Assembly (NCBI RefSeq): GCF_033954455.1
Contig: NZ_CP121473.1
Span: forward strand, 2,528,501-2,592,500
Direction of reading: 5' to 3'
Source of the DNA: Thiorhodovibrio litoralis
Lineage (GTDB): Bacteria > Pseudomonadota > Gammaproteobacteria > Chromatiales > Chromatiaceae
DNA: 64,000 bases
Within the stretch, counting starts at the first letter, position 1. Every line of letters starts with the position of its first letter. This document shows, piece after piece, positions 23,682 to 39,332 of this stretch. Under the pieces are notes generated by a model. It saw nothing but the letters and a program-made list of their open reading frames with translations. It had not been told where the DNA came from and did no database searches. Both the position numbers and the translations under genes were made by a program.

Positions 23682-23759
23682 GCCAGGCCGATGCTGACAG
23701 GGCATTCATGACTGCTCGGCAAACTCTATTGGTTCGTGATGTGGGCGCTGGAGGCCCCG

Positions 23760-24761
23760 ATGGTCGCAAAAAAAATCGAGGACGACTTTACCGAAGACAT
23801 CCCCGCGGGCGAGGACCAGGACGAGCTAATCGACGCGCAGGACGAAATGGAGGACGAGGATTTGCTCGTCGAAGACCAAAATAAGGGTGATGAGCCCAGC
23901 GGAAGCACTGGTTTCGCAGTGGGCGGCGGAGACTTCGACGCCACCCGGCTGTACCTGAATGAAATCGGCGGCTCGCGCCTGCTGACCGCCGAGGAAGAAA
24001 TTCACTACTCGCGCCTGGCCAATCAGGGCGACGAGGCCGCGCGCCGCTGCATGATCGTGAGCAATCTGCGGCTAGTGGTCAAAATCGCCCGCCGTTATCT
24101 CAATCGCGGCCTGCCGCTGCTCGATCTGATCGAAGAGGGCAATCTTGGCCTGATCCGGGCAGTGGAAAAGTTCGATCCCGAGCGCGGTTTTCGCTTCTCG
24201 ACCTATGCCACCTGGTGGATTCGCCAGACCATTGAGCGCGCGATCATGAATCAAACGCGCACCGTGCGTTTGCCGATTCATGTGGTCAAGGAGATCAACA
24301 TCTATCTGAAAGCCGCGCGGGTGCTCTCGCAACAACTCGACCACGAGCCGACCAACGAAGAGGTCGCCGACCTGCTCGACAAGCCCATTTTCGAGGTGAA
24401 GCGCATGCTTGGGCTGAACGAGCGCATTGCCTCGGTCGACACCCCGCTGGGCAAGGAGGCCGACAAGCCGCTAGTCGACATGCTGCAGGACGAGTCACTC
24501 GACGATCTCAGCGACTACATCCAGGACGACGACGTCCATGACAAGCTCGAGCGCTGGCTCGACAAGCTGACCGACAAGCAGCGCGAAGTGATCGAACGGC
24601 GCTTCGGCTTGCATGGCTACGATCACTCCACGCTCGAGCGGGTCGCGCAAGAACTCGGCGTGACGCGTGAGCGGGTGCGCCAAATTCAAATGGACGCCCT
24701 GCGCCGCCTGCGCCAGACGCTTGAGCGCGAAGGCTTCTCCTCCGAGGCCTTTTTTCGCTAA
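23760..24761 (+). CDS. rpoS: RNA polymerase sigma factor RpoS
   Basis: Stationary-phase/general stress sigma factor, 333 aa. A very acidic N-terminus precedes region 1.2 ([21 protein letters not shown]), region 2 ([20 protein letters not shown], and [20 protein letters not shown]), region 3 and the region 4 HTH ([17 protein letters not shown]). ATG 23760 is preceded by GGAG at ideal spacing; GTG 23736 and ATG 23739 are upstream alternatives. nlpD directly upstream distinguishes it from RpoD and RpoH. It is the last conserved gene before the accessory region. Confidence 0.96.
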
Positions 24762-24976
24762 CTGCCTATTTTCTCATCTCCATTTTTCTCGGTGCCGGGT
24801 CGTTTCCAGATGGCTTCGATGGGGTGCTATAGCAGCAGCGTGTCCGGGTTTCAATCTCCCTTCTGAAAATGATCGACATCGCGATCGACCGGGGCAGAAG
24901 AGGCATAGCCCCTTGAAAAAAAAGGATAAGGGATACGGATACGGATACGGACAGTCGAGCAGCACCGACAGATCGA
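24762..24976. other. convergent intergenic region with repeats
   Basis: Lies between rpoS and the oppositely oriented P-loop NTPase gene. It has lower GC than its surroundings, a run of A residues at 24916-24923, three GGATAC units at 24931-24948, and the left copy of an 18-bp direct repeat at 24902-24919. No credible gene was seen. Confidence 0.6.
24902..24919 (+). repeat. 18-bp exact direct repeat, left copy
   Basis: The sequence GGCATAGCCCCTTGAAAA occurs here and again at 30299-30316 in the same orientation. The two copies bracket the three-gene operon and the IS91-like remnants. The complementary strand reads TTTTCAAG before GGGCTATGCC; CAAG is a known IS91-family target tetranucleotide, so an element end is one possible origin. 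Confidence 0.75.
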
Positions 24977-26509
24977 TTATCGAATTGGTCGAACGCCGCC
25001 CCGGCGGCCAATGGCCGCCGCCACCCGGAACAGGTCCGGGATATCGACACGGTCGTCGTCGACACGACGAATCACGCCGATACGCTGCAACTCCTGGATC
25101 AGCGCCTTTTCGGGAGTATCGGAAGACCTGTCAGCCAGCGCATGCGGCGGAAGATAGAAGCGCTCGTCATCAATCTCTGCGCTGCCGAAAGGCTCCGGGG
25201 ACAGCGTCACCGTCCGATCACGCTCAATCGCCTGCACCGTGTGCGCATTCTCCCAGCGCTGCATGATGTCCTCGTCCCGGCAGGGCACAGTCTGACCATT
25301 CAGTGGCGTCAATACTGTCTGAATCCACGGATAATCCTCTCGCAGTTCCTGCACGCGAACCGATGAGGCGCTCTGCACACCGCGCTTGATGCCCTCCCAG
25401 TGCAACACCTCCCCGTGTCCCCTGGCCTGGGTTTCGCGCTGTGCATCGCGCACCGCGATCAAAAAGCTGCGCGGGCTGACCTGCCCCTTGGCATCCGCCA
25501 GGTGATTCGGCAGCCATGTATAGGTGCGTCCACGCCGCCGGTTGGCGCCCATGTAGCGGGTCGCCATGTCATGCAGCACCGCCTGTTGCAGGTCTTCGTC
25601 CTGGCGCAGCTTCGCCGGAATCGGGTAGACCTGCGCACCATCCGCCTCCGTTGCCGTGAAGGACAAGTGATGCTTCGATTGAAGCCAACGGCGATACATC
25701 TTGGCGCCTTCACCATGGTTGCACAGCCAATGCCACAACAGTCCATAAAGATCAGTCCGGCGCCATTCCAGGATGACGCGGCCGTGGTGCAGCTTGGACG
25801 AGTCCGGAAACTGCCAGATGGACCGATCCTCCCACATGTCCGGGCGGAGAAAGACCTTCGCCTGTATGCCCGTTTGTCCTTTCAGATCAAGGCAAACCTG
25901 AAGCAGTCCGCGCACCAACGCACGGATGGCTTTCCAGTCGGAGCCGGTGCGGTCCAGGGCATCGAAAATCACTAGGTGACGCTTCCCGTCCGCCGCAAGT
26001 CGGCCAGCGATTCGGCTCAGCAGCCGCTCCTCGCGCTCGGGGTTGTCCGCGACATAGGCCACGATCTCGGCCCAGTCCTTGCCAGGCAGTTCCTCGTCGT
26101 AACGGCTTGTGAGCTGGCGCAGCACCACCGCGCGCCAGATGTCCTCGGCAGCGTGGCTTCCGTGCAAACACTGAAGCACCCGCCGGGAGGGGTGATCGGC
26201 ATTGCGTGTAGACACCGAGAAGCCCCAGCTCGTCTCCACCCGATCCAGCTGCAGCCTGGGTAACTGGGCGTGGATCAGCGCCCGGGACACGGGGCTGTTG
26301 AGGGCTGCGCTCCAGAAGCTCTTGCCGCTACCGCGATCCCCGACAACGAGCGTACTGTTTGGGTCCAGCGCGCGCTCGTGGCCGAGCACCACGTATAGAT
26401 CGTTTGGGTCGGGCGGGTTGGTGCTCGCATCCATGGTATCCGGCAACTCGTCGAGGGAGCGCCGAACCTGATCGGTCGGGAAGGCTCCGTCTTTGATCTT
26501 AATCGGCAT
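24977..26509 (-). CDS. large P-loop NTPase, third gene of the KGGVGR operon
   Basis: 510-aa protein with Walker A VVGDRGSGKSF (Lys63) and Walker B LVIFDALDRTG (Asp183/Asp186), so it should bind and hydrolyse a nucleotide. The middle has no domain I can name; it is rich in Trp, Arg and His. The C-terminus (IQELQRIGVIRRVDDDRVDI then PDLFRVAAAIGRRGGV) looks like a small winged-helix-like end. ATG 26509 lies inside the last 11 bases of the ParA-like gene. The upstream in-frame start at 26551 would overlap further. AAA/STAND-like proteins in defence loci have this general size, but the function is unproven. Confidence 0.75.
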   Translation of the reverse strand: MPIKIKDGAFPTDQVRRSLDELPDTMDASTNPPDPNDLYVVLGHERALDPNSTLVVGDRGSGKSFWSAALNSPVSRALIHAQLPRLQLDRVETSWGFSVSTRNADHPSRRVLQCLHGSHAAEDIWRAVVLRQLTSRYDEELPGKDWAEIVAYVADNPEREERLLSRIAGRLAADGKRHLVIFDALDRTGSDWKAIRALVRGLLQVCLDLKGQTGIQAKVFLRPDMWEDRSIWQFPDSSKLHHGRVILEWRRTDLYGLLWHWLCNHGEGAKMYRRWLQSKHHLSFTATEADGAQVYPIPAKLRQDEDLQQAVLHDMATRYMGANRRRGRTYTWLPNHLADAKGQVSPRSFLIAVRDAQRETQARGHGEVLHWEGIKRGVQSASSVRVQELREDYPWIQTVLTPLNGQTVPCRDEDIMQRWENAHTVQAIERDRTVTLSPEPFGSAEIDDERFYLPPHALADRSSDTPEKALIQELQRIGVIRRVDDDRVDIPDLFRVAAAIGRRGGVRPIR

Positions 26510-27848
26510 GGTCGACGGCCTCGAGATCCTCGTTACCGAGAACGCGCTCATCCAGCGCTGCCATGAACGGCCCGAAGCTTGATGCGATGGCGGCGGCGCC
26601 CACGGTGCTCAGGTGTTCCAGCGGATTGAACTGCTCGAAGCGCGGGTCATTCAGGATCTGCAACGGGTAATGCGGCGCCGCATCATCCGTCTCGGCAAAG
26701 CTGAAGGCCTCCTCGGCGCCTCCGGCCGGCTGCTCGTCGTACAGGCCGTCGAGCCAGAGCTCATAGGCCCGCGAGCGGAAACCCTCCAGCGCACCCTGTT
26801 TCTCCGAAGCACGCGCGTAGACCATCTTTAGCCGCAGGCGCCAATCGTCGTCGCCCGCCGGATGGATATGCGCCATCTGCGCCAGTTGCGCCAAAAGATA
26901 GCGATACCCTTCCCAAACCGTGGGCTGGTCGGTGGCGAACAGCAGCACGTCCGCATCCAAGTGCAGGATGGCGGCCGCCGCCGTCTCGTGCAGACCGGCA
27001 CGGCTGTCGATGAGCACCAGGTCCGGCTCCAAGGCCCGCTCCAGCGTCCCCAGCAGCCGCCTCACCCTCACCGCGAAATCCTCGCCACCGCCGCGGTCAT
27101 TGTCCAGGTAGGCGCGTGCGAGCTTGGCGATGAAGCCGGCCGGATGCTGCGCAGTGCGCTTGCCCGTGGCCGGTGCCACGTACAGATAGCCCGGATCGGC
27201 CAGTGGTGATCTGGCCACCAGCATGCGCTCCACGAGCATTGCCTCCGCCATCGGGCTACCAACCAGATCCTCCGCCAGCCAATCGACAACGCCGAACTCC
27301 GGTCGGGCGTCGTCCGGCAGCAGTTGTGCGCCCAGCCCAGGCGCCTCCAGGTCCAGGTCCAGCAACAGCACCCGTTTTCCCTGTGCCGCCAGCTCGCGGC
27401 CCCAAAGGAATAAGGCCGTGCTGCGCCCAACGCCACCCTTGAGACTGAAGAAGGAAACCCGCGGCGGATGTACGACCGATGCACCCGCCTCGGTACCCGG
27501 TGCCAGCGCCCAGTCTTGTCCGACCACGCGGCGCTCGATCAGACGGATCAGCGTGCCATTGATGTCCTGTACCAGGAAGGGCTCGTCCATCAGCGCCCCA
27601 CCGAAGAGGGTATCGGAGAGGCGCACCAAACCGGTCTCCGAGCCGGGGCTGTAGGCTCCCAGCGCATCCGCGAGATGCGGACGCGCGGCGACCACCTCGG
27701 CTTGGTCTGCGGAGTCCGGCAGTACCAGATGCACCCGCCCGTTCATGTCGCGGATGAAACGGACATCGGCAAAGTCGATGCCGGCAAAGGTGCCTCGGAT
27801 CTGCTCCAGGGCGCGGGGCAGGGCGTCGTCGAAGGTGCATGGACTCAT
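26499..27848 (-). CDS. ParA/MinD-like ATPase with variant P-loop (KGGVGR)
   Basis: 449-aa protein. Residues 1-125 form an N-terminal domain I do not recognise. A deviant Walker A follows, FFSLKGGVGRSTA, in which the signature lysine (Lys137) is kept but the usual P-loop GK[ST] lysine is Arg142. RVLLLDLDLEAPGLG (Asp164) and LVLIDSRAGLHETA (Asp281) match the other ParA/MinD motifs. ATG 27848 begins two bases after the stop of the HEPN-like gene; the frame extends to 27890 inside that gene. No parB or parS partner is visible, so a partition role is unlikely. Arginine at this position probably alters ATP hydrolysis. Confidence 0.82.
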   Translation of the reverse strand: MSPCTFDDALPRALEQIRGTFAGIDFADVRFIRDMNGRVHLVLPDSADQAEVVAARPHLADALGAYSPGSETGLVRLSDTLFGGALMDEPFLVQDINGTLIRLIERRVVGQDWALAPGTEAGASVVHPPRVSFFSLKGGVGRSTALFLWGRELAAQGKRVLLLDLDLEAPGLGAQLLPDDARPEFGVVDWLAEDLVGSPMAEAMLVERMLVARSPLADPGYLYVAPATGKRTAQHPAGFIAKLARAYLDNDRGGGEDFAVRVRRLLGTLERALEPDLVLIDSRAGLHETAAAAILHLDADVLLFATDQPTVWEGYRYLLAQLAQMAHIHPAGDDDWRLRLKMVYARASEKQGALEGFRSRAYELWLDGLYDEQPAGGAEEAFSFAETDDAAPHYPLQILNDPRFEQFNPLEHLSTVGAAAIASSFGPFMAALDERVLGNEDLEAVDHAD

Positions 27849-27850
27849 AA

Positions 27851-28234
27851 TCAGTTCCCGAGGCTGGCCGCGCCCAACGTGCGCAAGCAATGACTTTGGT
27901 GCAGTTTACAGCGCTCCTCGGAGAACGCCGCGTCCGGCCAGTAGCGGTTGTCAATGCGCCAGCCAAGCATGTAGGAATCACTGTTCAGCAATTGCTGAAC
28001 AGCCCCATCCCGCCGACGACGCAAGGACTTCAATGCATGGTCGCGCAGCTCCGGCAGATGCGACAGCTTGACATCCGCCCCTTGGTGGCCCTCCAGCAAC
28101 AGCTTCAGCGCACACTCGGCACCCAGCCCAAAAAGATGACTGGCGTTGGCAAGACGCCCTTGCTCCAGCAGCAGCGTGCCGTCCTTGTGGCAGCGACGCG
28201 CCGCCGCCCGATAGTCCGGTTCTGATTCGGTCAT
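27851..28234 (-). CDS. small HEPN-like protein, first gene of the KGGVGR operon
   Basis: 127-aa, mostly helical protein. The segment DYRAAARRCHKDGTLLLEQG then RLANASHLFGLGAECALKLL resembles HEPN-superfamily helices. Arg27 and His33 (RLANASH) and RCKLHQSH near residue 108 both fit a loose R-x4-6-H spacing, but neither is flanked by the usual polar residue, so nuclease activity is uncertain. ATG 28234 follows AAGGA; the frame extends to 28378 without support. The next gene starts two bases after its stop. Fold assignment is from pattern recognition only. Confidence 0.6.
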   Translation of the reverse strand: MTESEPDYRAAARRCHKDGTLLLEQGRLANASHLFGLGAECALKLLLEGHQGADVKLSHLPELRDHALKSLRRRRDGAVQQLLNSDSYMLGWRIDNRYWPDAAFSEERCKLHQSHCLRTLGAASLGN

Positions 28235-28263
28235 CGGACTCGTGATCCTTGCATAGGCCAATC

Positions 28264-28383
28264 TCAGTTGTTGCGCCGCCGCCGTGTGACCGTCAGCGCC
28301 GAGGCGCGGATCTGGTCCGGGGTGATGCAGAGTTCGCGGGCTTCGTCGAGGACGAAGCTCGCCGGATAGCAAATCCAAGCCAC
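28264..28383 (-). pseudogene. 39-codon ORF or C-terminal gene remnant upstream of the HEPN-like gene
   Basis: From GTG 28383 the frame reads VAWICYPASFVLDEARELCI then TPDQIRASALTVTRRRRNN and stops 29 bases before the HEPN-like start. The composition looks like real protein, possibly the end of a longer gene cut off by the IS91 remnant. It could equally be a tiny first cistron. No family recognised. Confidence 0.35.
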
Positions 28384-28679
28384 CCTGAGGATCTAGAACA
28401 GGTGTCAGGGCGCAAGTTATCGGTTGTTGGGAGGGAGGTCAACGGCGGAAATACGCCTGCTCGACCATCGTGAGGAGCGCGGGACGGACTCAGTTGCGCG
28501 TTCTGAAGGAATTTGGGCGCGGACGGGCGAACTGAAGACAAACGCCCTTGGCACCGTGTCTGTCGGGAACAAGCGCGGCTTCCAAGCGACGCGTTGACCG
28601 AACTCCGGCTCCGGCTCCGGCTCCGGCTGATTAAAGTTGTCCCACTCCGGTGCCGCTGGACCGGGCGCTCTGGAATGCG

Positions 28680-29157
28680 CAATCAATCCCCGGCGGACAA
28701 ACCAGCGTATTACCCGCATGCGCACCCGCTCAGTGATGGTGGCGAGATCTTCGGCGCTCATTTAAGCGGCGGGGAGAAAACGCCGGAATCCCGTGGCTTC
28801 AGCGTCCTGCTCAAGCGGATCGAAGACGCCGTCGATGACACAGCAGTGGTAATGGACGTAACGATTGAGAGACGAGCCAAACCGGTGAATATAGCTCACC
28901 GCAACGAAACGTGCCTGAGCACTGACGGAACGGCCACTAACGGAACTGCTCTCACGCAGATGCAGCTCAATAATGCGCATGAGAATCCTGAGCACCGCGC
29001 TCGGCGCTCGCGGCACGCGCAGCGCATCCCAATCCTTCTTTCGTGCAAATGCGAGATAGGTCTCCAGATGCTGTTGCACGATCTGGTAGAGCGCGGTGTG
29101 CTCTGAACAGCGGAGACGATAGGCCTCCGTCGGGCAGCGAGACACGGCGACGGCCAT
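28680..29157 (-). pseudogene. IS91-family transposase remnant (copy A)
   Basis: Minus-strand fragments of an IS91-type rolling-circle transposase. The N-terminal zinc-binding region begins HTALYQIVQQHLETYLAFAR. After an internal deletion comes the diagnostic SYIHRFGSSLNRYVHYHCCV then IDGVFDP. A stop follows, and in the next frame LATITERVRMRVIRWFVRRG continues the family sequence. The downstream part has degenerated into an Glu-Pro repeat (28604-28632). It is not functional. The remnant lies just upstream of the three-gene operon. Confidence 0.8.
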
Positions 29158-30123
29158 GATGGAGTGCTGGTGGGTTCACGAACCAAGACTGTCTTTATAG
29201 ACAGTATCGTTGCAGTGTTGCGGAAGGATTGACAGCTGCAGACCAGCCGATGTGCGCCGACGGATTGTTGATCAGTCAATTTTTTTTGCGCATAGGTTGC
29301 CGCAGTAGAGGTGAAAAAATGCCGTATTCAGAAAACACAGGCTATTCAAGTAAAGCGCCTAACGTAGGCCACGTTGTGTTATATCTCGCCTAGCTTACGA
29401 GTTCATTTGTAGGGATTTTCCCTACAAGAAAACGCAATATTCTCGGATTTTTCCACAATACTAAATTGCGGTTTTCGGCCATATATACTCTAATGTGACC
29501 CTTATTCGCTTGGAAGTGTTCTAGTGATGTTCTAAACTCGGATTCTAGGCGGTCGCGCGGTGTCACACACAAGTCGGCTAGTAAGCACAATAGCCAGCAT
29601 TGAAATCAGGTAATTTCAAAAATGCCGCGGCAGCAAGGCACAGTCTTACCCTAAATTGAAGCATTTTCTGATCTATACGCACATTATGTTTACAACACGG
29701 CTCGCCACAGTTCGACAAGTCCGTCGCGGCGCGTCCTGGCCGTTGATGACGATCCGGTTAGCACGCTCATTATTGAGAATGCACTGGCTGACCAGTTTTT
29801 GGTCGATACGGCGCATAGTGGCGAAGAAACGCTGGAGCGCATTGAGCCTGTAATGCCCGACATTATTCTGCTCGATGTGGTTATAGGCGGAATGGATGGT
29901 TACGCGGTCTGCTCGGCGTTGCGCGCGCAGATCGCGGTCGCTTTTCCGCTCGACACGCTCAAGATCGACCGCTCCTTCGTGACCGCCCTAGGCACGGGTG
30001 CGACGGGCAAGAGCGTGGTGCACGCCATCGTCGCCCTGGTGCAGGGACTGAAACTCAAGGTGAGCGCCGAGGGCATCAAGACCCAAGCGCGGGCCGACAG
30101 GCTGCGGCGCAACGACAGGAAAT
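29010..30123 (+). repeat. segmental direct duplication, copy A (deleted and diverged)
   Basis: Aligns with 30357-33118: IS91-remnant 5' end, its upstream hairpin, about 500 bp of AT-richer non-coding DNA with two palindromes, and a REC-EAL gene. Long identical blocks alternate with diverged ones, including 40-base identical stretches in the REC coding part. Copy A has lost about 1.7 kb between the receiver and the EAL end. Confidence 0.85.
29158..29696. other. non-coding duplicated upstream region, copy A
   Basis: AT-richer than the rest of the window. It holds an 18-base hairpin at 29188-29205 (ACTGTCT/AGACAGT arms), a palindrome at 29407-29427 (TTGTAGGG/CCCTACAA, 5-base loop) and an inverted repeat at 29600-29619 (TTGAAAT/ATTTCAA). 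All three recur in copy B. The 66-codon minus-strand frame at 29390-29590 is not kept in copy B and is not called. Confidence 0.65.
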
Positions 30124-30125
30124 AG
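29697..30125 (+). pseudogene. broken REC-EAL gene (internal deletion fusion), copy A
   Basis: Paralogue of the gene at 31044. The start ATG has become ACG at 29697 and the AAGGAG ribosome site is lost. The receiver part runs in frame to CSALRAQ (about nt 29930) and then jumps to the EAL C-terminus (FPLDTLKIDRSFVTALGTG), removing roughly 1.7 kb of PAS, GGDEF and EAL sequence while keeping frame. The EAL motif EGIET has become EGIKT. A TTG at 29799 could in theory still start translation of 108 residues. It ends at TAG 30125. Confidence 0.85.
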
Positions 30126-30129
30126 AGAA

Positions 30130-30312
30130 ATGAAAGAAACATTTGCGTTTATTACAATCTTTGCCCTATCTATCATACTATTCAGCGGAATGATTGCAGT
30201 ATACGGATACAATAATCCTTATGAGGATTGCAAAAAATACGCTGGATCAATCCCAGCAGGCCAACGATATACCTGCGAACGGATGAACATTGACACTGGC
30301 ATAGCCCCTTGA
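30130..30312 (+). CDS. AT-rich small orphan membrane peptide, possibly truncated
   Basis: 60-aa frame beginning MKETFAFITIFALSIILFSG, a clear single TM or signal segment, followed by a short polar part with two cysteines. Codon and base use are AT-rich, unlike its neighbours. Its 3' end runs into the right copy of the 18-bp repeat and the IS91 remnant, so the natural C-terminus may be lost. Only a weak GAG precedes the ATG. No family recognised. Confidence 0.4.
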   Translation: MKETFAFITIFALSIILFSGMIAVYGYNNPYEDCKKYAGSIPAGQRYTCERMNIDTGIAP

Positions 30313-30316
30313 AAAC
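30299..30316 (+). repeat. 18-bp exact direct repeat, right copy
   Basis: Same sequence and orientation as 24902-24919. It coincides with the junction between the AT-rich small ORF and IS91 remnant B. Confidence 0.75.
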
Positions 30317-30319
30317 CGC

Positions 30320-30503
30320 ACTTCAAATAGCGGCGAAACTCCCGTTCCACATAAGTCGGCACGCGCGGTACCGCCCAGTCTTTCTCTCGTGCAAGAGCGA
30401 GATAGGTCTCAAGATGCTTCTTCACGATCTGGTAGAGCGCGGTGTGCTCTGGACAGCGGCGGCGACAGGCCACCGTCGGGCAGCGAGATACGGCGACGGG
30501 CAT
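30320..30503 (-). pseudogene. IS91-family transposase remnant (copy B)
   Basis: N-terminal fragment only: HTALYQIVKKHLETYLALAR, then RVPTYVEREFRRYLKCG, the family's zinc-binding region. It keeps the VPTYVEREFRRYL segment that copy A has deleted, so the two remnants decayed independently. After KCG the sequence no longer resembles IS91 transposases. Confidence 0.8.
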
Positions 30504-33118
30504 GATGGAGTGCTGGTGAGGTCACGACCCGGTACTGTACATATATACAGTATCGTTGCTGCATTGCGGAAGGATTGATAGCTGCAGACCAGCCGATGTG
30601 CGCCAGCGGAGTGTTGATCAGGCAAATATTTTTGCGCATACCTTGCCGCAGTGGAGTTGAAAAGTGGCCGTATTCACCAAACACAGACTCTTCAAGAAAA
30701 CTGCCTGCTGAAGGTCACGCAGTGATATATCCAGGCGGATTTTTGAGTCCGTTTGTAGGGAATTTCCCTACAAAACACGGTAATCGTCTCGGTTTTTTTC
30801 CACAATACTAAATTGCGAATTTTGGCTGAACCTACTCTAATGTGACCGATGCTCGCTGTTAAGTGCTCTAGTTATGTTCTAAACTCGGATTTCAAGCGGT
30901 CGTGCAGGGCCACACAAAAGACGGCTAGCAGCACAATAACCGGTATTGAAATCAGGTAATTTCAAAAATGCCGCGACAGCACGGCACAGCCTTACGCTAA
31001 CTTGAAGGATTTTTTGATCCGTGTGTATTAAGGAGTAGACAGCATGGCTCACCACGGTTCAACAAGTCCGCCGCGACGCGTCCTGGCCGTTGATGACGAT
31101 CCGGTTAGCACGCTCATTATTGAGAATGCACTGGCTGACCAGTTTTTGGTCGACACGGCGCATAGTGGCGAGGAAGCGCTGGAGCGCATTGAGCGTGTAA
31201 TGCCCGACATTATTCTGCTTGATGTGATTATGGGCGGAATGGATGGTTTCGCGGTCTGCTCGGCGTTGCGCGCGCAGCCGTGGGGCAGGACTCTGCCGGT
31301 GGTGATGCTGACCTCGCAGGACGATACGGCGTCCATCGCGGAGGCTTTTCGGGTCGGCACGACCGACTTTATCGGCAAGCCCATCAATGCGGCACTGCTG
31401 CCTTATCGGGTGAAGTGTCTGCTGCGAGCGTGGGATACGCTCCAAGCACTCGGCCTGCGCGAGCGTCAGTTGGCCGCCGCGCAGCGCATTGCCGAGCTCG
31501 GGCATTGGGAGATCAAGCCGGCGCAAGGGCGCTTTCAGCTCTCGGAGTCGGCGCGTGAGCTGCTGAAACTGCCCGACCCGCCCCAACGCCAGGCTGCCGA
31601 CCCCGCACTTGTGGCATCTCCCAAGCTGTCGTCCGAGCCATCAATCGAGCAGGTGCTAGCGGCTGTGCTCGATCAGGTGCTTGAGGAGGAGCGGGAGAGC
31701 GTTCAGCGCGTTTTCTCTGGCTTTTTTACCCAGGGTGGCAAGCCGACTCGCTTCGAGCATCGGCTGAGGGACGGACGCGTGCTGCGCCAATGCGCCGAAT
31801 ACTCGCGCGAAACCGGCGGCTGGCTGGGCACGGTGCAGGATGTCACGGCCATGCACCGCTCGGCCCAGCGCATCGTCAAGCTCGCCTACTATGATCAAGC
31901 CACCGGCCTGCCGAATCGGGATTTCCTCATCGAGTTCCTGCAGTGTCGGCTCGCTGAAGATCAGAGCGCGGAGATCAGCATTCTGGCGGTCGAGATCGAG
32001 GCGCTCAAACGTGTCGGCCGTGGCTGGGGACAGGCGGTCACCAAGCCCCTGGCGCGCGACCTTGCTGAGCGGCTGAGCGCCGCGACCGGGTTCCCCCGGC
32101 CCCAGCCTCCGTTCAAGTCCCCGCTGGACTGGACGGCCGACCAATCAGGGCTGCTGGCGTGCGTCAGCGACTCGGCCTTTGCCATCTTGACCGAGGCGGA
32201 CGCGGCACAAACCCTGGCGCTGGGCCAACGGCTGCTCGCAGATCTTGCGCAGCCAATCGAGGTCGCCGGTATCAAGTTGTCGATTAGAGCCGCCCTTGGT
32301 ATCGCGCATCGCTCAACTCCGCAGACAGAGGCCGAAGACCTGCTGCGCCATGCCCTGAGCGCAGCTGCGGCTTGTCCCGCGCCGGATCGGGTGCAGCGCT
32401 ACCAGCACCAGTTCGACACCGAGGAGCGTGATCGCCTGTCGCTTGAGGCCCGGCTGCGCCGCGCCATCGACCGGGACGAGCTCGAGCTTTGGTATCAGCC
32501 CAAGGTCGACAGCAATCGCAATACCCTGGTCGCGGCGGAGGGCCTGGTGCGGTGGCGCGATCCGCACGAAGGGCTGATTCCACCCGGGCGCTTTATTCCC
32601 TTGGCCGAGGAGACCGGCCTGATCGTGCCCCTAACCGACAGGGTTCTGGACATCGCTTGCAAGGATCTTCGGCGCATGCGCGCACCCGGTCTCACCCCAG
32701 TCGAGATCTCGGTCAACATCAGCGCCGCCCAGCTCGATGATAGGCGACTGCCGCAGGAAATCGCTGCACGCCTGAGCAAAGCCGGCCTGCCGCCGAGCTG
32801 CCTGGAGCTGGAAATCACCGAGCAGGCGCTGATGTCGCGCGTCGACAGCGTGATCGACACCCTCACCGAGCTGCACGCCTTGGGCATCAGCCTGTCCCTT
32901 GACGATTTCGGCACCGGCTACTCCTCTCTGGGTTATCTCGGTCGCTTTCCACTCGACACGCTCAAGATCGACCGCTCCTTCGTAACCGCCCTGGGCACGG
33001 GTGCGGCGGGCGAGAGCGTGGTGCACGCCATCGTCGCCCTGGCGCAGGGACTGAAGCTCAAGGTGATCGCCGAGGGCATCGAAACCCAAGCGCAGGCCGA
33101 CTGGCTACGGCGCAACGG
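30357..33118 (+). repeat. segmental direct duplication, copy B (intact)
   Basis: Counterpart of 29010-30123. It carries the complete REC-PAS-GGDEF-EAL gene and a matching upstream region. Copy A matches 30357 to about 31274 and then about 32935 to 33118. Confidence 0.85.
30504..31043 (+). promoter_or_regulatory. upstream region of the REC-EAL gene with conserved palindromes
   Basis: About 540 bp without a gene. It contains a hairpin at 30534-30551, a perfect palindrome at 30752-30774 (11-base arms TTTGTAGGGAA/TTCCCTACAAA, one central base) and an inverted repeat at 30946-30965 (TTGAAAT/ATTTCAA, 6-base spacer). All are conserved in the diverged copy A, which suggests function as operators or RNA structures. 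AAGGAG at 31030 serves the ATG at 31044. Confidence 0.55.
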
Positions 33119-33245
33119 CTGTAGCCTGCACCAAGGTTTCTTCTACTCCCGTCCGCTCGAGTTTGACGCCTTTCTGCGCCTGCTTGATACCCGCTCATCG
33201 CCACCCTGGAGGCCTTCGACATGTGTGCCGCAAGCCGTTTGTTAG
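31044..33245 (+). CDS. response regulator with PAS, degenerate GGDEF and EAL domains (c-di-GMP phosphodiesterase)
   Basis: 733 aa. The receiver (residues 14-130) has the DDD acidic pocket and phospho-acceptor Asp60 (IILLDVIMGG). A PAS-like region (about 145-275) ends WLGTVQDVTAMHRSAQR. The GGDEF domain (about 280-445) is degenerate, with CVSDSAF where GGDEF is expected, so it should not make c-di-GMP. The EAL domain (about 465-720) keeps AEGLVRW (EGL variant, near 499), SLDDFGTGYSSL and VIAEGIET, so phosphodiesterase activity is plausible. AAGGAG precedes ATG 31044. The next gene overlaps its end by 25 bases. It is likely controlled by the hybrid kinase downstream. Confidence 0.9.
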   Translation: MAHHGSTSPPRRVLAVDDDPVSTLIIENALADQFLVDTAHSGEEALERIERVMPDIILLDVIMGGMDGFAVCSALRAQPWGRTLPVVMLTSQDDTASIAEAFRVGTTDFIGKPINAALLPYRVKCLLRAWDTLQALGLRERQLAAAQRIAELGHWEIKPAQGRFQLSESARELLKLPDPPQRQAADPALVASPKLSSEPSIEQVLAAVLDQVLEEERESVQRVFSGFFTQGGKPTRFEHRLRDGRVLRQCAEYSRETGGWLGTVQDVTAMHRSAQRIVKLAYYDQATGLPNRDFLIEFLQCRLAEDQSAEISILAVEIEALKRVGRGWGQAVTKPLARDLAERLSAATGFPRPQPPFKSPLDWTADQSGLLACVSDSAFAILTEADAAQTLALGQRLLADLAQPIEVAGIKLSIRAALGIAHRSTPQTEAEDLLRHALSAAAACPAPDRVQRYQHQFDTEERDRLSLEARLRRAIDRDELELWYQPKVDSNRNTLVAAEGLVRWRDPHEGLIPPGRFIPLAEETGLIVPLTDRVLDIACKDLRRMRAPGLTPVEISVNISAAQLDDRRLPQEIAARLSKAGLPPSCLELEITEQALMSRVDSVIDTLTELHALGISLSLDDFGTGYSSLGYLGRFPLDTLKIDRSFVTALGTGAAGESVVHAIVALAQGLKLKVIAEGIETQAQADWLRRNGCSLHQGFFYSRPLEFDAFLRLLDTRSSPPWRPSTCVPQAVC

Positions 33246-34135
33246 TGGTCGACGATGATCCGGTAGATACCGAGATCATCCGCGAATTCCTGCACAACAC
33301 CCCCTATGAGGCGGACTATGCCGCCGATGGCGCCACCGCCTGGGCGCGGCTCAATGCCGATCCGGAGCACTTCGATGCCCTGATCCTGGACCGCATCATG
33401 CCCGAGCTGAGTGGCATAGATCTGCTGGCGCGTCTGGTAGCGGACAAGCGCTTTTTCGCCCTGCCAATCATCATGCAAACTGCGGCCAACACGCCCGACC
33501 AAGTCGCCGAGGGGCTGGCGGCTGGCGCCTGGTACTATCTGGCCAAGCCCTATAGCGGCGACAACCTACGCCAGATTGTGCACGCCGCGCTCAATGAGCG
33601 TTTCCACCGTCTAGAACTGCAACGGCTCGAACAGGAGCTTGATGCGACCTGGACCCTGTTGCACGAAGGCCATTTCCAGTTCCGCACCCCGGAGCAGGCG
33701 CGCTTGCTGTCGTCGCGCCTTGGTAGCTTCTGCGCGGAGCACTCGCCGGTGACCATGGGCCTGTCCGAGTTGATGCTCAATGCCGTGGAGCACGGCAATC
33801 TCGGCATCGGCTATGCCGCCAAGAGCGAGCTGCTCGCCGAAGGCCGGCTGCGCGAGGAGATCGAGGAAAGGCTGCGCACGCCCGAGCAACAGGAGCGCTG
33901 GGCGCAGGTGCGCTTTCAGCGCGATGCCAGCGAAATCCACTTCCACATCCAGGACTGCGGCGAGGGGTTCGACTGGCAGCGCTATCTGGACTTCGAACCT
34001 GAGCGCATGTTCGACGCCCACGGCCGCGGCATCGCCATGGCGCGGCAGATGGCCTTTACCCGGCTCGACTATCAGGGCCGCGGCAATTGCGTCGACGCCA
34101 GCGCCCGGCTGCACCAGCCTCCCAGTTCAGAGTAG
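33221..34135 (+). CDS. response regulator with RsbW-like ATPase (HATPase) output domain
   Basis: 304 aa. The receiver has DDDPVDTEII and phospho-acceptor Asp57 (LILDRIM). The C-terminal half has a histidine-kinase-like ATP-binding fold: N-box ELMLNAVEHGNLGIG (about 184) and G1-like IQDCGEGFDWQRYL (about 244), with GRGIAMARQM. There is no HisKA domain, so it resembles anti-sigma kinases such as RsbW rather than a sensor kinase. The start lies inside the upstream gene. A phosphorylation-controlled partner-switch output is an inference. Confidence 0.82.
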   Translation: MCAASRLLVVDDDPVDTEIIREFLHNTPYEADYAADGATAWARLNADPEHFDALILDRIMPELSGIDLLARLVADKRFFALPIIMQTAANTPDQVAEGLAAGAWYYLAKPYSGDNLRQIVHAALNERFHRLELQRLEQELDATWTLLHEGHFQFRTPEQARLLSSRLGSFCAEHSPVTMGLSELMLNAVEHGNLGIGYAAKSELLAEGRLREEIEERLRTPEQQERWAQVRFQRDASEIHFHIQDCGEGFDWQRYLDFEPERMFDAHGRGIAMARQMAFTRLDYQGRGNCVDASARLHQPPSSE

Positions 34136-34196
34136 GCCCAAGTTAGACGCAAAGGAGACCCGGAAGAGTCCCGGGCGGCAAGTATCGCCTTGAGTC

Positions 34197-38957
<4,761 letters not shown>

Positions 38958-39332
38958 CAAGGATGAGGCGCGGGTTCTTTCGCCTCCTTGCTGCGGCGGC
39001 AGTACTACCAGCACGGCACGCGCGCCAATCGGGCGATCCCTGAAAGCTTGAGTATTTGACTCGAGTATCTTGACTTTCAGGCGCTGATGAATTGTCATTG
39101 CAGCGGCTGAAAATGCGCGGCATGGCTCTGGGTGGCGGGTCATTGGGGGCAGGGGTGGCAGGTCATTGCCCAGCGGTTGATCCCATATGCGACAATTCCG
39201 TCGCGCTCCTTCAGCGTCCGACTGGTGATCCCGATGGGGGCTGCGCCAGTCGGTTCCAACCAGTCGGCCCGGCCCCGTTTCGCTGCTGCGGCTTGGCTGT
39301 CGTGGCTCGTGTAGCAGTCAGTGGAGGAGTCT
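38958..39332. other. intergenic region upstream of ccoN
   Basis: About 375 bases without a gene. An imperfect tandem repeat, GAGTATTTGACTC then GAGTATCTTGACT, lies at 39050-39076 and could be an operator. A TTGAT half-site near 39178 is not followed by a good ATCAA, so an FNR box cannot be claimed. GGAGG at 39324-39328 serves the ccoN ATG. Confidence 0.5.

Follow-up and report, generated by a model that had tools for sequence, protein, structure and literature searches.

Within the window, by which we mean the whole 64,000-nucleotide stretch of the Thiorhodovibrio litoralis genome that was analysed, three open reading frames lie head-to-tail on the minus strand: gene A (27851-28234), encoding a 127-aa protein of predicted HEPN fold (PDC-M28A); gene B (26499-27848, ATG start), encoding a 449-aa ParA/ArsA-like ATPase with a KGGVGR P-loop (PDC-M28B); and gene C (24977-26509, ATG start), encoding a 510-aa STAND/ORC-Cdc6-like P-loop NTPase (PDC-M28C). 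All three frames are open, with a 2-base gap between the stop of A and the start of B and an 11-base overlap between the stop of B and the start of C, so the coordinates bear out the single-strand, three-gene operon described in the first-pass annotation. Its placement just 3′ of rpoS (23736-24761) is also correct, as the two are convergent, with 215 bases between the ends of C and rpoS. The A-B-C operon is real and more than a chance arrangement: in 103 of 123 loci its homologues are also neighbours, and dN/dS of the window genes is 0.15-0.25 against the two nearest named relatives.

The site that holds the trio is variable within the genus, in keeping with the variability of the rpoS 3′ side in other gammaproteobacteria. 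From rpoS to the next shared gene on this side the distance is ∼0.1 kb in the congener G454, 2.5 kb in the congener G453 and 14.3 kb in the window, where the stretch at 24762-39042 is missing at this place in G454; that genome lacks the trio, and its rpoS 3′ site is nearly empty. The 14.3-kb insert also carries response-regulator/EAL-type ORFs and a 1586-aa sensor-kinase-like ORF, with domains assigned by eye. A minus-strand block at 24954-28400 is shared with Thiorhodococcus mannitoliphagus (28400-24954), T. minor (28378-24954) and G453 (28396-24969), and in G453 it is 98.5% identical and occupies another chromosomal place, away from rpoS. Upstream of the trio lie two copies, 83% alike, of a ∼760-bp repeat (29131-29882 and 30470-31229), and G453 has a further copy, 79-89% alike, likewise upstream of its trio. 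This possibly IS91-like repeat may have helped move the trio. When an Enterobacter plasmid trio was compared with E. coli, the 20 matches listed showed only one of 143-147 bases under an integrase, and no place covered 80%.

Standing alone in this way, the trio is under purifying selection. The dN/dS values of window A, B and C against the two nearest named relatives (L044 and L045) are the 0.15-0.25 given above, and against three further relatives (L046-L048) they are 0.29-0.48 for A and 0.08-0.20 for B and C, making A the fastest-changing of the three proteins.

All three proteins match the models of a candidate type already held in PADLOC-DB 2.0.0, PDC-M28, with scores of 78 bits for A, 381 for B and 521 for C. 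By these matches the window locus is a member of PDC-M28, and we regard it as a further representative of a catalogued, apparently unvalidated type; no difference was seen at the level of the models, and what sets the window copy apart is its position outside any BREX operon. Literature searches for the name PDC-M28 and for KGGVGR found no paper. The kind of system is not new; the mechanism proposed below, a fused subtype and the scar of an exit from BREX are.

The recurrence of the trio was assessed in 123 loci, made up of 12 from searches of the genome itself and its class (including the window copy), 10 from plasmids, 21 from viral contigs and 80 from genome contigs. The genome contigs were searched with B, because no part of the C alignment was conserved enough to serve as a query, and a locus was counted as a trio when A, B and C followed one another on a single strand within 600 bases, with starts picked by rule. 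The first-pass annotation had let its reading hinge on the homologues being neighbours elsewhere, and they are: the A-B-C order is found in 103 of the 123 loci, the window copy among them, representing 99 distinct B proteins (an identical B is shared in four pairs of loci). By source, trios were found in 6/12 own-genome and class loci, 9/10 plasmid loci, 13/21 viral-contig loci and 75/80 genome-contig loci, the last rate being biased upward and valid for close relatives because these 80 are the best of 413 by similarity of B. The genes are tightly packed, with a median intergenic gap of -4 at both junctions under rule-picked starts, a gap of exactly -4 in 52/103 and 44/103 trios at the two junctions, and both gaps within 15 bases in 91/103; in 11 of the trios at least one of the genes is short or cut. 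Judged from genome labels and plasmid records, the trios span at least 11 phyla. Of 210 genomes of the order, 28 have C, as do two of the three in the genus and 20 of 72,556 plasmid records. No sign of the other alternative raised at the outset, a housekeeping complex, was seen.

Some loci depart from this arrangement. A plasmid locus (L021) holds C alone, and at L056 (9983-12815) B and C are present with A undetectable; the frames upstream of that B-C pair are broken, and one begins PIN-like by eye. Among less similar relatives of B, five loci (L009, L010, L039, L042 and L043) are without the trio. The B relative of L009 is joined to TPRs (Pfam) and that of L042 to a NACHT domain, and those of L009 and L010 are without the exact KGGVGR motif.

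The small protein, A, had been called HEPN-like from its sequence, and structure prediction agrees, giving a HEPN helical fold whose helices include residues 28-48 and 62-70 (best Foldseek E = 0.038). Five residues (E40, K44, H59, R97 and Y98) are invariant in 88/88 homologues. Their arrangement, with E40 in helix 2, H59 between helices 2 and 3 and R97 at the motif position in all 88, is of the AbiV/AF0298 type, for which passages of PMC3710099 propose an alternative HEPN active site of E-K-H-R pattern. The canonical Rx4-6H motif is not what R97, at the end of helix 3, belongs to, since a histidine follows at +5 to +7 in just 7/88 homologues; an Rx5H-type match at R27-H33, present in 50/88 including the window copy, is N-terminal and off the canonical place. 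AbiV (by the title of PDB entry 9bj6, an RNase belonging to a two-component antiphage system) and HEPN-T (PF05168) proteins such as AF0298 have the fold in common with window A, and resemble it in the histidine between helices 2 and 3, the arginine without Rx4-6H and the acidic residue in helix 2. They differ in that window A has no Pfam match at E values up to 1 and is partnered by two NTPases. Among the 88 homologues, 18 match Pfam HEPN_AbiV (best 2.7e-5) and 12 match Pfam HEPN (best 4.9e-5) at E values up to 0.1, window A matching neither. A PDB sequence search with A returned nothing credible. A related gene arrangement is the MAE_18760 HEPN and ParA/Soj dyad of PMC3710099, in which a HEPN gene likewise adjoins a ParA-like ATPase gene; however, a table in that paper gives the MAE_18760 family as keeping Rx4-6H, and the window system adds a third gene, C. 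In a family scan of A, MAE_18760 HEPN was not among the 16 families matched, the presence of its model in the library being unconfirmed.

Protein B matches the NCBIfam family AAA_KGGVGR (NF047398) with 180 bits against a cutoff of 90, and a profile search of the PDB gave ArsA, ParA and MinD as its relatives. The motifs KGGVGR and D-x-D-x-E-x-PG are nearly invariant. Compared with the deviant Walker A motif KGGxGK of ParA, MinD and ArsA, B keeps the first lysine and has an arginine in place of the second, so that the P-loop lysine is arginine in 102/102 B proteins (a count that excludes one B under 380 aa). From this substitution we infer that B may have altered ATPase activity.

Protein C falls just below the cutoff of NCBIfam ATPase_Sll1717 (72 bits against 75), a model that a Calothrix C matches with 95.9 bits; neither this family nor AAA_KGGVGR has a role named in its description. 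The predicted fold of C is of STAND/ORC type, which supports the first-pass reading of the large NTPase, and matches BrxC, ORC/Cdc6, CED-4 and NLR proteins, with low Foldseek TM-scores (0.31 for BrxC). Its Walker A motif, GxRGxGK, is present in 97/97 homologues, and the columns of its Walker B motif, FDALD, are conserved in 85-97 of 97. Although BrxC and other STAND/ORC-Cdc6 ATPases have the predicted fold in common with C, identity is 8-17% among the VIA matches listed, and a C-terminal repeat sensor of the TPR, WD or LRR kind was not found in C, for which Pfam gave no repeat family at E values up to 1. We do not read a family's being missing from the VIA lists as its exclusion. At curated Pfam cut-offs none of A, B and C has a match, no Pfam nuclease or membrane domain was found in window B or C, and a PDB sequence search with C gave nothing credible. 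In a Magnetococcales MAG (L094:10606-15978), C continues into metallophosphoesterase and NACHT domains.

In six loci (L011, L035, L037, L038, L040 and L041) B and C are joined in one ORF, and both P-loops are kept, with the first lysine of KGGVGR changed to arginine in L011. An A-like HEPN gene lies directly upstream of the fusion in five of the six, the sixth (L037) starting at a contig end. These A-like genes give weak profile matches (E 1.4e-15 to 0.0011), and all five of their proteins have ECxxK, H and RY, some of the histidines being left unaligned in the small alignment. The fusions speak for direct contact between B and C in their action, and the A-like gene with its B-C fusion is, as judged from sequence, a two-gene subtype of the trio.

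The trio is also embedded in BREX-2 operons. Genes of BREX-2 flank it in 6/123 loci (L013, L019, L046, L067, L068 and L077), two of which, L013 and L019, supplied the search queries; the other 117 have no BREX-2 component in the stretch examined, some stretches being short. In L019 the trio stands between pglW and pglX, and in the other five it follows pglX, at a distance of 1.4 kb from pglX to A in L046; in L067 and L068 the start of A and the pglX stop share 4 bases. By our visual reading of the C tree, the six loci occupy no fewer than three positions, with rows that carry no BREX label between them (the count made by the tree program takes in labelled rows alone). In the order, a PglX match was found in 13/28 genomes with C and in 9/182 without it (Fisher p 6e-8, uncorrected for kinship or genome size and with few PglX candidates scored per genome). 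The two genes lie less than 10 kb apart on one contig in three genomes (G419, G422 and G426), of which G422 and G426 appear to repeat the L013 and L046 cases.

A trace of such an embedding survives in the window. At 28264-28362 on the minus strand, 29 bases upstream of A, lies a remnant of a BREX-2 methyltransferase gene, its final 32 codons with the stop, which translates as ASFVLDEARELCITPDQIRASALTVTRRRRNN-stop and corresponds to the end of PglX. This pglX scar is 63% identical over 35 residues to the PglX of L046 (E 2.6e-6; E 7e-16 at the DNA level), and is also present in Thiorhodococcus mannitoliphagus, T. minor and the congener G453. The scar indicates that the module of the window formerly stood behind an L046-type pglX in a BREX-2 operon, and then left. 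The genome has a BREX-2 system of its own ∼133 kb from the trio (L127/L128, G000:C1 about 2412035-2431566), in which the frames of pglW, pglX, pglY, pglZ and brxD are open and followed by a 741-aa ORF. Its pglX was considered as the source of the scar and ruled out, there being no DNA match. The trio is not part of the obligate core of BREX type 2, as the genome's own BREX-2 is without it.

Viral contigs provide a second context. The surroundings of 12 viral-contig trios (IMG/VR), out of 13, comprise 135 ORFs, and the 25 families listed for these include four integrases, four repressors, three endolysins and two terminases; NinB, NinG and a Q-like gene lie near the trio of L027, and a terminase near that of L034. 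Neither B nor C has a match in 50,697 phage records. A PADLOC scan at a threshold of 1e-20 covered 111 of 336 neighbour ORFs (from 58 of 72 loci) and, as a control, 111 of the 127 ORFs found in 17 arbitrarily chosen stretches of class genomes. The neighbours matched 56 models and the control 97, some of the ORFs in both sets being possibly spurious antisense frames, and the control exceeded the neighbours because it contained BREX and R-M genes. The first-pass annotation had proposed a defence or conflict system, and this is partly supported by the PDC-M28 matches, the BREX-2 embedding and the prophage-type contigs; the PADLOC neighbours do not rise above the control.

We consider it likely that the trio is an anti-phage defence system, and probably one of the abortive type. 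For its working we propose a relay from C through B to A, with A as an RNase, a scheme to which we give roughly even chances. In it, C, as a STAND/ORC-Cdc6-type ATPase with a short C-terminal part resembling a winged helix, would sense an infection signal and change its nucleotide state; B, of ParA/ArsA type, would pass the signal onward and, with arginine in place of the P-loop lysine, would probably be a slow switch or clamp; and A, with its alternative E-K-H-R site of AbiV/AF0298 type, would be released or activated to cut RNA. Computation shows the unity of the operon, the predicted folds of A and C, the motifs, the B-C fusions and the embedding in and exit from BREX-2; the direction of signalling, the RNase activity of A and the trigger by phage are the points that we infer.

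The catalytic role of A is where a different reading enters. As a non-catalytic adaptor or sensor, A would bind RNA or a phage product and leave the effector step to B-C, which would suit the scarcity of a histidine after R97 (7/88), the resemblance of C to BrxC and ORC/Cdc6 and the one C that runs into metallophosphoesterase and NACHT domains; the fast change of A would also suit such a sensor role. Nevertheless, a set of E, K, H, R and Y residues that is invariant in 88/88 homologues and returns in 5/5 fusion-locus relatives speaks against it, as does the finding of no Pfam nuclease or membrane domain in window B and C, and we find this reading unlikely. It is less likely again that the trio serves mobile elements as a toxin-antitoxin or maintenance module with no real anti-phage role, as was postulated for the HEPN and ParA/Soj pair in passages of PMC3710099. 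Two large NTPases, embedding in BREX-2 and selection at solo sites would be unusual for a simple pair, even though A has the size of a toxin, C occurs in 20 of 72,556 plasmid records, and trios are found in prophage-type contigs and at differing chromosomal sites within one genus.

An accessory of BREX-2, functional solely together with it, would suit the overlap of pglX and A in L067 and L068, the scar in the window, the intact BREX-2 ∼133 kb away in the same genome and the PglX matches in 13 of the 28 order genomes with C. Against this dependence, which we judge slightly more doubtful than the maintenance module, stand the 117 of 123 loci with no BREX-2 component (some in short stretches) and the 15 of 28 genomes with C that have no PglX match. 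A housekeeping or partition system, to which the likeness of B to ParA, MinD and ArsA might point, is highly improbable given the patchy distribution of C (28/210 order genomes), the arginine in place of the P-loop lysine and the HEPN partner.

Taking the relay from C through B to A as the preferred reading, we suggest tentatively, and with clearly less confidence than the relay itself, that the trio might represent a separate class of RNase immunity gated by NTPases, in which a ParA relative with an Arg P-loop gates a STAND-type sensor that controls a non-Rx4-6H HEPN RNase; such a system would join BREX-2 operons through translational coupling as a back-up and leave them as a free module, with the two-gene form carrying the B-C fusion as a second subtype. 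PrrC backs up a restriction system, and the trio in BREX-2 may be likened to it.

PDC-M28, catalogued and apparently untested, gains from this analysis a concrete proposed mechanism with named residues, predicted folds for A and C and a fused subtype. The trio of the window would be a defence module caught after its exit from a BREX operon, with the scar still legible, which is relevant to the way back-up modules enter and leave defence operons.
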